A stretch of DNA of 64,000 nucleotides from Treponema sp. (GTDB lineage: Bacteria; Spirochaetota; Spirochaetia; Treponematales; Breznakiellaceae). The stretch covers positions 25,488 through 89,487 of the forward strand of contig WQYB01000003.1 of the NCBI GenBank assembly GCA_009781475.1, given 5' to 3'. This document shows positions 58,613 through 64,000 of the stretch, in pieces. Numbering within the stretch: position 1 is the stretch's first letter; each line of letters opens with the position of its first letter. Below the pieces are notes generated by a model. It did no database searches. It worked only from the letters and a program-made list of their open reading frames with translations, and was not told where the DNA came from. The translations under genes were made by a program, and so were the position numbers.

Positions 58613-59767
58613 TTAAACCTTATAACCTTGCTGAATAGCTTTAGTCAGTTTCAATTTAATAAAATTATTTTCTTTTTTTAATTTAGAAATTTCCAATTGT
58701 TGTGTTTTTACCGTTTCGATTAAATCACCCTGGCTCATAGCGCCCGAATGCAGTAAATCTTCGATATATTCCATCTTTGTATCAAAATCAATTTCTGCTT
58801 CCAGTTCTGCTTCCTGAAAACTGTCTTCAATTTGCTTGTCATCCGGCGTGTAATTATCTTCAGGGCTTTCAAGGATTTTATCGGCGATGCGGTAAACTGC
58901 CTGTGATAAAACCGATTGAGGTTTATAAAGTAAAATCGGCAATCTTGAAGCAAGTGCTGTATCCTGAAGCGTATCGCGGTAAATAATTCCCATGTGTTCG
59001 ATTTTTAAATCAAGATATTCTTCGCACGAACGGCGGATCTTCATAGCGACATCGGCGTTTTTAGGCTCGTCTACCATGTTCATGATAAGACGCGGGCGAA
59101 GGTTATCAAGACGTTTAACAAATTTTTCGTGAGAGACAGGATCGATTTTTTGAATTTCGGGCAGTAATTTTGGAATGTAAATATGACCCGCTCCGTCTTT
59201 GCGCATCTTTTCCAAATGAGCGCGTGCTTTTGATCCTCTTGTGCATGAGCTGAACATCAATCTGAATACTGTATTTTTCAAAAAAACATAAGCGTTTAAA
59301 ACTGCTGTTACAGCAGGAGCAGAAACGACAATACCTTGATTGGAAAGCAGAAAAAAATCCAGAATGGATTGATGAGTTCCCGCTCCTAAATCCAGAATTA
59401 AAATATCAGTATCATCTTTTAAAGCTAATAATTGTTTGACAAGAGCTTTACGCTGGGTAGCTGTAAGATTGGCAGTTCCCGGTATTTCGTTGTCTCCCGG
59501 TATAAAGCGAAGCCCGCGTACATCAGTTTCAGCGATTACATCAGAGAAATTTGATTTGACATTATTCAGATATGTCCCGATTCCCGCTTTTGGCGCATGA
59601 TGCCCCAATACAAGATGCAGGTTGGAAGCTCCAAGGTCAAGGTCGGCAAGAACAACACTTTTTCCTGCCTGCGCAAACGACACCGCCAAATTTGCGGAAA
59701 CTAAAGATTTGCCGACACCGCCTTTTCCGCTTGCTATTGGAATAACACGCATTTTATCCTCCGCCAA
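58613..59767 (-). CDS. MinD/ParA-family P-loop ATPase
   Basis: VIPIASGKGGVGKSLVSANLAVSFAQAGKSVVLADLDLGASNLHLVLG. Confidence 0.95.
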   Translation of the reverse strand: MAEDKMRVIPIASGKGGVGKSLVSANLAVSFAQAGKSVVLADLDLGASNLHLVLGHHAPKAGIGTYLNNVKSNFSDVIAETDVRGLRFIPGDNEIPGTANLTATQRKALVKQLLALKDDTDILILDLGAGTHQSILDFFLLSNQGIVVSAPAVTAVLNAYVFLKNTVFRLMFSSCTRGSKARAHLEKMRKDGAGHIYIPKLLPEIQKIDPVSHEKFVKRLDNLRPRLIMNMVDEPKNADVAMKIRRSCEEYLDLKIEHMGIIYRDTLQDTALASRLPILLYKPQSVLSQAVYRIADKILESPEDNYTPDDKQIEDSFQEAELEAEIDFDTKMEYIEDLLHSGAMSQGDLIETVKTQQLEISKLKKENNFIKLKLTKAIQQGYKV

Positions 59768-60152
59768 CTTCGTCTGTAATTGATTGAGGTTCTGCTGTTT
59801 TCCGTAAATCCTTGATAATCAGCAGAACAGCGGCAAAGGAAAGCAAATCGCCGCATAATATATTACTTTGTACAATTATATCCTGTTTGGAAATTATAGA
59901 CCAGATCAATAGAATAATAATACCAATGCATTTTCCTGCCAGGAAAAGCGGCAGATATGCTCTAAAACGGTCTGTATCAAGCCATAAAAACAGCGCCATT
60001 AATGGAAATAAAGCTAATGGAACGGCAAAAATCACCACTATGAAAAGACCGGGATTGTTTCTTAAAATGAGCAGCAAAAAAAACGTAAGGGTTATAAATC
60101 TGACACATTCATATACAAAAAGACCCGGTTTTACAATCTGTACCAATTTCAT
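59754..60152 (-). CDS. Small hypothetical membrane protein
   Basis: 132 aa, 4 predicted TM stretches, overlaps the ATPase start. Confidence 0.6.
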   Translation of the reverse strand: MKLVQIVKPGLFVYECVRFITLTFFLLLILRNNPGLFIVVIFAVPLALFPLMALFLWLDTDRFRAYLPLFLAGKCIGIIILLIWSIISKQDIIVQSNILCGDLLSFAAVLLIIKDLRKTAEPQSITDEVGGG

Positions 60153-61485: not shown

Positions 61486-62028
61486 GTGAAAAAAATATGC
61501 GGTTATATATGTCTATGTTTTTTGATTTTATTTATTATTTCATGTGATTATGGGTCTTCTCTTATTATTAAGAATAATTCTAACATTAAATTATTAATAG
61601 AAATAAATACAACTTTTGACACTAATATTAAATATTTAACAACCTATGAAAATGGTGAAACATATGGTCGTATTGATTGGAAATCCATATATCCAGAACG
61701 AGTCGGTGGTTTTACGTTATTAATAACTCCATTTGAATTAGATATAGATAATGATATTAAAATCATAAGTTTACTAGGACAGATAATAAACGAATTTGAA
61801 TATGGTTCTGTAAAATCAAAAGATGATATAAAAAAAACAATTGATGAAATATTTTTAGAAATAAATATTTATTATGAAGACGAAAATGAAAAAATATTAT
61901 TGTATGATAAATCTTATTTTTTAAATGAAGATATTATTGAAATAAGAGAACAAAGATTTCCTACAGGAAAAAAAGGATTATATGATATCATTTTACATAT
62001 TAATAATCATGAAGTGTTGGAAAACTGA
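61486..62028 (+). CDS. Small lipoprotein, unknown
   Basis: MKKICGYICLCFLILFIISCDYGSSLIIKNNSNIKLLIEI. Confidence 0.65.
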   Translation: MKKICGYICLCFLILFIISCDYGSSLIIKNNSNIKLLIEINTTFDTNIKYLTTYENGETYGRIDWKSIYPERVGGFTLLITPFELDIDNDIKIISLLGQIINEFEYGSVKSKDDIKKTIDEIFLEINIYYEDENEKILLYDKSYFLNEDIIEIREQRFPTGKKGLYDIILHINNHEVLEN

Positions 62029-62173
62029 AAGATTGATAAAATATCAGAAAAGTATGCTGTTATACTCTTACAGGCGTGAGCGAAAATCCACTTCGGCGAC
62101 ATATGGCTGCGTCATAAAAAGTTAATAACAATTTTGATCGCGAAAGCGATCCGTCGTAGATTAGCCGAATGTT

Positions 62174-62290
62174 ACAGCCATCCGGAGCCGGAGGGGAGGT
62201 TTCGCGCAAGCCTGTGAAAAATATTAAAAATGTGTTATATTATATATAATGGAGTTATTATGAAAAATGTTTTTGTGCTTATCCTTTGTT
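62174..62290 (+). repeat. Repeated promoter/leader/signal-peptide segment, copy 1
   Basis: cagccatc...gcgcaagcctgtgaaaaatattaaaaatgtgttatattatatataatggagttattATGAAAAATGTTTTTGTGCTTAT, closely matched at 63769-63880. Confidence 0.85.
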
Positions 62291-62781
62291 TATTTATATG
62301 TTCTATAGCAGTTTCGCAGGAAAATGCTGTCGTCAGTAGTAATGGCGTATCATCATTTTCGTATAATAATTATACATTTATTATATGTTTATACAATGAT
62401 TATGAACGTGCAATGGAAATATGGGATACCTCAAAAAGCCCGCCTGTGATGCCGCCTGTTTCAACAAGAGTAACAAGAACGAGTTTTATTATGCCTTTTG
62501 TAATATTTGGAACAGACAGGAATGGAACTGTTAACTTAACATATGATGTAAAAGTACTGCAGCCTGATAATACATTTTCATCAAAAGATGAAATAGATAA
62601 GATAAGAATTGCTCAAAGAGCAGTTAATGGAATGGTATTATACAGAGCAGATGAATTATTGGCTTTTTATTTTCCAGGTAGTGAATACAGGACAGGAAAG
62701 TATCAATTTCACATTAATATAAGAGAAAACGGGGAAGTAATATATACATGTATTATGGAATTTGAGCTTTCGGAAAGATAA
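62260..62781 (+). CDS. Small exported protein, unknown
   Basis: ORF 62230..62781; ATG 62260 after ggag: MKNVFVLILCLFICSIAVSQENAV. Confidence 0.65.
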   Translation: MKNVFVLILCLFICSIAVSQENAVVSSNGVSSFSYNNYTFIICLYNDYERAMEIWDTSKSPPVMPPVSTRVTRTSFIMPFVIFGTDRNGTVNLTYDVKVLQPDNTFSSKDEIDKIRIAQRAVNGMVLYRADELLAFYFPGSEYRTGKYQFHINIRENGEVIYTCIMEFELSER

Positions 62782-62788
62782 AGTTTTT

Positions 62789-62829
62789 CCAGCATTTTTC
62801 TGAACAGCGGCAAACACCGCCTGTACTAT
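62789..62829 (+). repeat. Structured 41-nt repeat, copy 1
   Basis: ccagcatttttctgaacagcggcaaacaccgcctgtactat. Confidence 0.75.
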
Positions 62830-62969
62830 GTAAATTTTATTTGTATATATGTTTCCTCATAAAATTATCTATTGACAAAACAGGCTTTACGACCAGAGAT
62901 TGAAGCGGATCTACTTGATAGAGTTAATGTTATATGGGAGAATAGGAAAATAAAGAGTAGGACATATTT

Positions 62970-63374
62970 TTGAATAGATTTTTAATAATTTCTGTATCTT
63001 TTCTCTGTTTTTTATTAATGAGTTGTACGCCAGGGTTTTTCTTTATAATTGAAAATAGATTGGGAGAATCAATAGACTTGAATTTTTCTATTATTGACGA
63101 TCTTTTAGATTCTAGTATTGAAAAAACATATCAAGGAAGACTAGAAAATAAGGAGCATTTAGTTGTTGATTTCTCATCACAAGCATTTTTTAATATAGGT
63201 ATTGATAGAGAAGATTATGTAAATACTGAAATATTTTTATCGATATTTGAAAATATAATTATTAAAACTACAGATACTGATACTACGTTTAATAAAAATG
63301 AGTTGTCTTTTTTTAAAGTTAAGCATTATAGAAAGAATAACGCAAATTTTTATATTCTAGTGATAGAAAATTAG
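62970..63374 (+). CDS. Small lipoprotein, unknown
   Basis: MNRFLIISVSFLCFLLMSCTPGFFFIIENRLGESIDLNFSI; lipobox. Confidence 0.6.
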   Translation: MNRFLIISVSFLCFLLMSCTPGFFFIIENRLGESIDLNFSIIDDLLDSSIEKTYQGRLENKEHLVVDFSSQAFFNIGIDREDYVNTEIFLSIFENIIIKTTDTDTTFNKNELSFFKVKHYRKNNANFYILVIEN

Positions 63375-63604
63375 ATCATCGAAGTGTCAAGAAACCAAAA
63401 GATTGATAGAAAGTGACAGATACGCAAATGTATCAGACACCAAATCTTTATAGTGTCGTTAGCTGTCATGGTACAATATATCTAACATAAGTAATTGTAA
63501 ATTTCATTGTACAGGCGGAGCAGGGGCTGGGCAGAAAAATATTTCTGGAGCTCCCTGCGACAGGAGACATGTATACAAGCAACGAAAATTAGAGAGAATA
63601 AATG

Positions 63605-63669
63605 TTCTGCGTCAAAAATGCATATAGCTTTCTAGGTAAATAAATTCATTTTTCATTTTTGATGCAGAA
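63605..63669. repeat. Long inverted repeat (16-bp arms, 1 mismatch)
   Basis: ttctgcgtcaaaaatg ... catttttgatgcagaa. Confidence 0.75.
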
Positions 63670-63684
63670 TGGCTCCGAAAGCAG

Positions 63685-63748
63685 GTTCATCCAGTGTTTT
63701 TCTGAACAGCGGAATGTTTCGCCTGTACTATACTAGCGCTGGATGAAC
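63685..63748 (+). repeat. Structured repeat, copy 2 (63691-63731), enclosed by 10-bp perfect inverted repeat
   Basis: gttcatccag (63685-63694) / ctggatgaac (63739-63748) enclosing tctgaacagcggaatgtttcgcctgtactat. Confidence 0.75.
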
Positions 63749-63768
63749 TATAAAGGATTGTCGAATTT

Positions 63769-63880
63769 TCAGCCATCTCTAGCCTGCGGGGGTTTTTGCG
63801 CAAGCCTGTGAAAAATGATAAAAATATGTTATATTATATATAATGGAGTTAAAATGAAAAATGTTTTTGTGCTTATTCTT
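63769..63880 (+). repeat. Repeated promoter/leader/signal-peptide segment, copy 2
   Basis: cagccatc...gcgcaagcctgtgaaaaatgataaaaatatgttatattatatataatggagttaaaATGAAAAATGTTTTTGTGCTTAT. Confidence 0.85.
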
Positions 63881-64000
63881 ATATTTTTTATTTTTATACA
63901 AGCGTGCACATCAATAAAAACTGAAAAGCTGGAAACTGAAGCAAAAACTAAATCATATACGCTTGATGATTTTTCAAAAGTTGTTATTGGAATGACTTAC
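63854..64000 (+). CDS. Lipoprotein, partial at window end (possible BamE/SmpA-like domain start)
   Basis: MKNVFVLILIFFIFIQACTSIKTEKLETEAKTKSYTLDDFSKVVIGMTY... Confidence 0.6.
   Translation, partial: MKNVFVLILIFFIFIQACTSIKTEKLETEAKTKSYTLDDFSKVVIGMTY

Follow-up and report, generated by a model that had tools for sequence, protein, structure and literature searches.

A dispersed hairpin repeat with a conserved two-loop core in one Treponema-related family

Near one end of the 64,000 nt stretch of Treponema sp. DNA analysed here (the window) are two copies of a short intergenic repeat, which an earlier note, made from the sequence alone, described as a 41 nt unit whose hairpin keeps its structure while its sequence varies. 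The locus raises the question of what kind of element these copies belong to. Both copies are present: the pattern CTGAACAGCGG-N7-CGCCTGTACTAT occurs twice in the window, at 62800-62829 and 63702-63731, where shuffled sequence gave an expectation of 0. Neither copy lies within a plausible gene, and copy 1 starts 2 nt past the stop codon of an ORF ending at 62781. The match between them extends over 47 nt with 79% identity. Folded alone, the 41 nt pieces barely beat shuffled sequence (z -1.8 and -1.1), and the bases assigned to a local CGG..CCG hairpin pair instead with the 5' arm of a much longer element.

The full-length element

When the sequence around the repeats was used to search G000, the 3.29 Mb genome (216 contigs) from which the window comes, full-length or near-full-length relatives of approximately 210-235 nt were found on contigs C144, C9, C74, C99 and C115. 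Comparison with these revealed that 41 nt is not the size of the repeat unit. Copy 2 (63691-63731) forms the 3' arm of an element of approximately 222 nt, and copy 1 is a 5'-truncated remnant that retains only the 3' arm, as do similar fragments on contigs C118 and C4. The element ends in the inverted repeats GTACAGGCG ... CGCCTGTAC and, folded as RNA, forms from end to end a single imperfect hairpin (-87.2 kcal/mol, z -6.58). The earlier observation is partly confirmed and its interpretation partly supported; what had been seen was only the tail of the element. The coordinates of its parts are listed in Table 1.

Table 1. Features of the element and of its truncated relative in the window
Feature	Position	Strand	Basis
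Full-length element, long (~222 nt) form	63509-63731	+ (folded strand)	Fold; R1 match 63504-63733, 259 bits; full-length copies
5' outer arm, pairs with 63699-63728	63509-63538	+	Lineage-variable sequence, pairing kept
Core 5' half: CTGGA, loop RYTC, CYCTGC helix, loop GNA, GGAGAC	63545-63568	+	Column conservation
Conserved unpaired stretch of the long form, ATGTAnACAAGCAACGAAAATTAGAGAGAATAAA	63569-63603	+	A1 alignment, invariant columns
Apical hairpin, 17 bp, stem 63604-63620 / 63654-63670	63604-63670	+	Missing from the short (~125-145 nt) form
Core 3' half: GGCTCC, loop GNA, GCAGG helix, loop RYTC, TCCAG	63671-63694	+	Column conservation
3' outer arm, most of copy 2	63699-63731	+	Repeat match, fold, alignment
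5'-truncated fragment (copy 1)	62783-62829	+	79% identity to 63685-63731; like fragments on C118 and C4

The + strand of each copy can fold as a long hairpin made up of a fast-changing outer stem, a conserved two-loop core and an optional apical domain, in which pairing is kept by compensatory changes. In 83 copies from 34 genomes, the consensus of the core is 5' AAAACATYTCTGGA-RYTC-YCYGCYG-GNA-GGAGAC ... GGCTCC-GNA-GGCGG-RYTC-YCCAGAGTTTT 3'. Each of its two internal loops reads alike on either strand: one is RYTC/RYTC, with TC at 100% on both sides, and the other is GNA/GNA, with G at 91/90% and A at 97/92%. The G..A columns stand at 91/97% in the 5' half and 90/92% in the 3' half, AGAC is conserved at 95-98% and GGCT at 95-100%, and the core GG and AGAC are almost invariant. 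The outer stem (25-40 bp) is near-perfectly paired and its sequence is unrelated between lineages; that of the apical stem is also lineage-specific, yet paired. In the short form, the apical part is a short loop, while in the long form (approximately 220-255 nt) it comprises the conserved unpaired stretch and a second, sequence-variable hairpin.

Within 63569-63670 of the window, the unpaired stretch AACGAAAATTAGAGAGAATAAAAG and the apical loop CTTTCTTGG of the long form have diverged less between G000 and G008 than have the outer stems, which suggests a second recognition site. A remnant at approximately 430-480 of L128 (G037, contig C27) keeps the outer stem (CAGCCGGAGGGGGCG/..GCGCCCCCTCCGGCTG) without the core, and looks as though the palindrome had lost its tip by deletion. 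Many of the copies whose flanks were compared (the G004 copies L145-L158, together with L102, L116 and L133) carry extra short inverted repeats outside the hairpin: one group has CTAAACTTGACCCRCA..TGYGGGTCAAGTTTAG and another has CAGAAATGTATG..CATACATTTCTG. These may be either a separate nested repeat or the true ends of the element.

Pairing and functional strand

The covariation that the earlier note proposed to look for in further copies was found. An alignment of 14 full-length copies from three genomes (A1; G000, G010 and G008) contained 56 pairs by RNAalifold, 19 of which had at least one both-sided compensatory change. Examples are TACAGG/CCTGTA in the outer arm, which is TTCAGG/CCTGAA in the C99 copy, and CCTGCG/CGCAGG versus CCAGCG/CGCTGG in the apical stem. 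The covariation score was 0.208 against a shuffle mean of 0.115, and sliding the register reduced pairing from 96% to approximately 40%. In 26 core sequences of the short form (A5), both-sided changes affected 18/20 core pairs, and the score was 0.521 against 0.249 in shuffles. Neither score was attained in any of 500 shuffles, though kinship alone can lift related sequences above shuffles, and the slid controls and effect size weigh more than the 0/500. At two pairs of orthologous intergenic sites (L110/L195 and L113/L202), the outer stems differ and are still paired. The element therefore shows the covariation expected of a conserved structured RNA, beyond both shuffled and slid controls, and conservation of structure rather than sequence holds for the family, though not for the small hairpin originally drawn.

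Which strand folds was examined in the outer stems, aligned by a strand-symmetric score. G.U exceeded A.C by 205 to 61 (3.4-fold), with more G.U than A.C in 76 copies and the reverse in 16, a comparison with a mild bias, since the models used to find the copies treat G.U as a pair. The + strand gave the better RNA fold in 112/130 copies, a count to which the homologous core contributes and which is therefore not independent. GNA/GNA loops are able to form sheared G.A pairs on the + strand only. Because of the G.U excess, the fold preference and the strand-limited G.A pairs, the form that functions is probably the + strand, either as RNA or as ssDNA. It is possible that strand-biased C-to-T mutation is a partial cause of the G.U excess.

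Distribution and genomic context

Covariance models were built from A1 (R1) and A5 (R2), with E-values that are rough, as they come from short calibrations. R1 matched 28/40 genomes of the genus and 40/200 of the family; the numbers of copies it gives are upper bounds because they include weak reverse-strand echoes of the palindrome. With R2, copies were detected in 44/394 genomes of the order and 5/393 of a phylum sample. All matches were confined to one bacterial family (f1), and as genomes outside it gave no match the models appear specific. In a deeper search with R2, copy numbers were 73 in G009, 47 in G183, 45 in G013, 40 in G015, 33 in G041 and 15 in G008; copies per genome thus reach at least 73, and range from 0 to approximately 73 within one genus. 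No match to the element was found in phage and plasmid collections, nor an exact match to the core in viral contigs, and an origin in phages or plasmids was rejected on the lack of matches there. Against Rfam, whose families include HEARO, 6S and the group II intron, none of the elements tested gave a match that attained a family's gathering score, only weak generic hairpin (miRNA) matches, and searches of the open-access literature returned no account of such an element in Treponema. The family is previously unlisted. Dispersed palindromic repeats are already known as a kind, and what is new is a conserved core within freely changing paired stems.

In G009, near-identical copies, falling into two subfamilies, lie on different contigs in different surroundings. 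Among 40 copies examined, most were intergenic, with orientation to the flanking genes unbiased (10/8/6/6); the few overlaps with predicted ORFs include several that are apparently 5' over-extensions of the ORF. No recurrent neighbour gene that might be a partner was found among the copies, and a cis-acting leader or riboswitch of one gene class was rejected because neighbours and orientation vary. The lipoprotein genes that had been remarked on beside both repeats do adjoin them in the window, but other copies adjoin unrelated genes in every orientation, and the association is incidental. Copies less than 500 nt apart, among those listed, form approximately 25 divergent, two tandem and no convergent pairs, many of which are copies of composite units and so are not independent. 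Any replication-strand bias among the listed copies in G183, judged by eye against an assumed origin, is suggestive at most, the copies being too few.

No target-site duplication was recognised by eye in the flanks of aligned G009 and G004 copies. A clean empty site was not found when the G010 copy L091:3511-3739 was compared with the window; the downstream gene is common to both (59754-60152 in the window, where there is no copy), and synteny breaks beyond it, making the boundary unreadable. As neither signature was found, we infer movement from dispersal only. Copies of one subfamily have their inverted ends in common, these ends differ between species, and no autonomous partner was found. 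The element does occupy an orthologous position in two species each at two places, one between TonB-dependent-receptor-like and periplasmic-binding-protein genes and the other between transglutaminase-like and PQQ/BamB-like genes. As the stems at orthologous sites differ, either the stems of some copies changed without the copies moving or one site was struck twice.

The window holds other sequences of interest around the element. After it, at 63736-63815, is a second repeat (GATGAACTATAAAGGATT..CAGCCATCC..GCGCAAGCCTGTGAAAA) that recurs with 95-97% identity beside Rhs/YD-repeat genes on C148, C172, C177 and C126, and more weakly, several times, on C182. A second duplication, of approximately 100 nt (62194-62297 and 63788-63891), spans the promoter region of two lipoprotein genes. 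From 61486 to 64000 and on into C144 (L054:1-2486) small lipoprotein-like genes that change fast and have no Pfam match form an array, flanked by ilvN on one side and an ABC-transporter/secA-like region on the other; no viral relatives were found when one lipoprotein gene was searched for them. On C148 and C172, relatives of the array are the immediate downstream neighbours of Rhs-type genes, so that the array may be one of orphan Rhs immunity genes. The last base of the window is also that of contig C3, and C144 starts with the same 123 bases (63878-64000 = L054:1-123), so that C144 appears to continue C3.

Alternatives and known systems

We consider it probable that this is a family of dispersed, structured, non-coding repeats that multiplies within the genomes of one Treponema-related family, non-autonomously mobile and with selection on the folded + strand through which it acts. 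Copies would spread with factors supplied in trans, the part recognised being the core and not the ends, and the folded + strand would act as RNA (or ssDNA). Once transcribed, the hairpin would probably be a binding site for a protein or a substrate for an RNase III-type enzyme; by analogy with Correia/NEMIS, this could affect the processing or stability of mRNA. A more specific version, which seems rather unlikely, is that of a new kind of mobile structured RNA, with a core on the folded + strand recognised by a trans-acting protein and any outer stem serving as long as it pairs. If so, the 5'-truncated copies in the window's genome would hint at copying through RNA, like that of SINE-like retroelements.

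The strongest rival is palindrome repair, in which DNA mechanics (quasi-palindrome template switching or gene conversion between arms) makes the paired variation and the element is a MITE with long inverted ends. Template switching can yield compensatory change in a long palindrome, the outer stems are near-perfect, and between very similar copies in G009 several pairs have changed together (CACTCAC/GTGAGTG versus CGCTCGC/GCGAGCG). However, the same processes should have corrected the mismatched internal loops, whose TC and G..A positions are instead kept at 90-100% across 34 genomes, and template switching should not give 3.4 times as many G.U as A.C pairs. In a MITE, moreover, the conserved part should be the ends and not the middle. 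Weakened by the conserved loops and the G.U excess, this explanation is unlikely. We rate lower still the prospect of a multi-copy small RNA gene or cis-acting mRNA element kept for a regulatory role, with mobility secondary or ancient. The strong covariation, the strand asymmetry and the retention of two orthologous operon positions across species (L110/L195 and L113/L202) would all suit it, but a copy number that varies so widely among relatives in one genus would not, nor would the inconsistent position and orientation relative to genes, and no promoter or terminator pattern was recognised by eye around copies.

Two further systems share features with the element. Hairpins mobilised as ssDNA by a Y1 (IS200-like) transposase, as in REPIN/RAYT, would likewise be numerous and often in divergent pairs, and Y1_Tnp genes do occur in some carriers. 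Yet the carriers G000, G004, G008, G025, G026 and G028 have no Y1_Tnp match, a core match was near only 1 of the 25 Y1_Tnp loci searched, and REPs are 20-40 nt long, whereas this element is a far longer hairpin that is conserved in its middle. As the Y1 transposase/RAYT does not track with the element, a RAYT system was rejected, and we hold this origin to be very improbable. The attC-like role that the earlier note raised, that of an integron site in a cassette array of small lipoproteins, draws on the intervening repeats in the lipoprotein gene arrays of the window and C144, and recognition of a folded strand would fit the strand asymmetry. It is refuted by two findings: the best integrase in G000, an assembly that is 93% complete, scored 75 bits against an integron integrase cut-off of 265, and copies are spread over many contigs in either orientation beside unrelated genes. 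The arms are also long and conserved, and no RYYYAAC/GTTRRRY boxes were seen at the ends, leaving attC membership with next to no credibility.

The preferred reading, of a mobile, structured repeat family, has wider implications. A high-copy element with free-evolving ends, a kept and paired middle and strong covariation is the reverse of a normal MITE. With it one can test directly whether bacterial palindromic repeats are under selection as RNA, under selection as ssDNA or are by-products of palindrome repair, and it points to a large component of termite-gut Treponema genomes that has gone unannotated. With 47 matches in the complete 4.06 Mb genome G183, experiments look feasible if that is a cultured strain.

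In being short (125-255 nt), non-coding, mostly intergenic and dispersed in up to 73 copies per genome, the element resembles MITEs. ERIC/IRU of enterobacteria and Correia/NEMIS of Neisseria are dispersed, intergenic, RNA-foldable imperfect palindromes of approximately 100-250 nt, with optional insertions and truncated copies. The element shares their size, dispersal, intergenic imperfect palindromes, optional internal insertions and truncated copies; they are defined by conserved sequence, whereas it keeps only pairing and a small core, across many genera of one family. Stand-alone HEARO/omega RNAs of IscB-type elements are structured RNAs of similar size that are also dispersed non-autonomously, but the element has no Rfam match and is a single long hairpin where theirs is a multi-branched fold. 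Reviews treat ERIC/IRU and Correia/NEMIS as small mobile sequences or MITEs (PMC2229807, PMC10969869). BIME/REPIN are paired REP palindromes, mobilised by RAYT, often in opposite orientation with a spacer and present in many copies (PMC2817692, PMC3116915). Here too palindromic units are often opposed across a spacer and numerous in each genome, but they are 125-255 nt long, have a structured core and show no correlation with RAYT/Y1. BOX of Streptococcus pneumoniae consists of modular, dispersed, intergenic hairpin repeats (PMC3049150), a description that also fits the element, which lacks the boxA/B/C modularity and has as its conserved part the two-loop core in the middle. By these comparisons, the element may best be read as comparable to ERIC, Correia and BIME, but with an RNA-like core.
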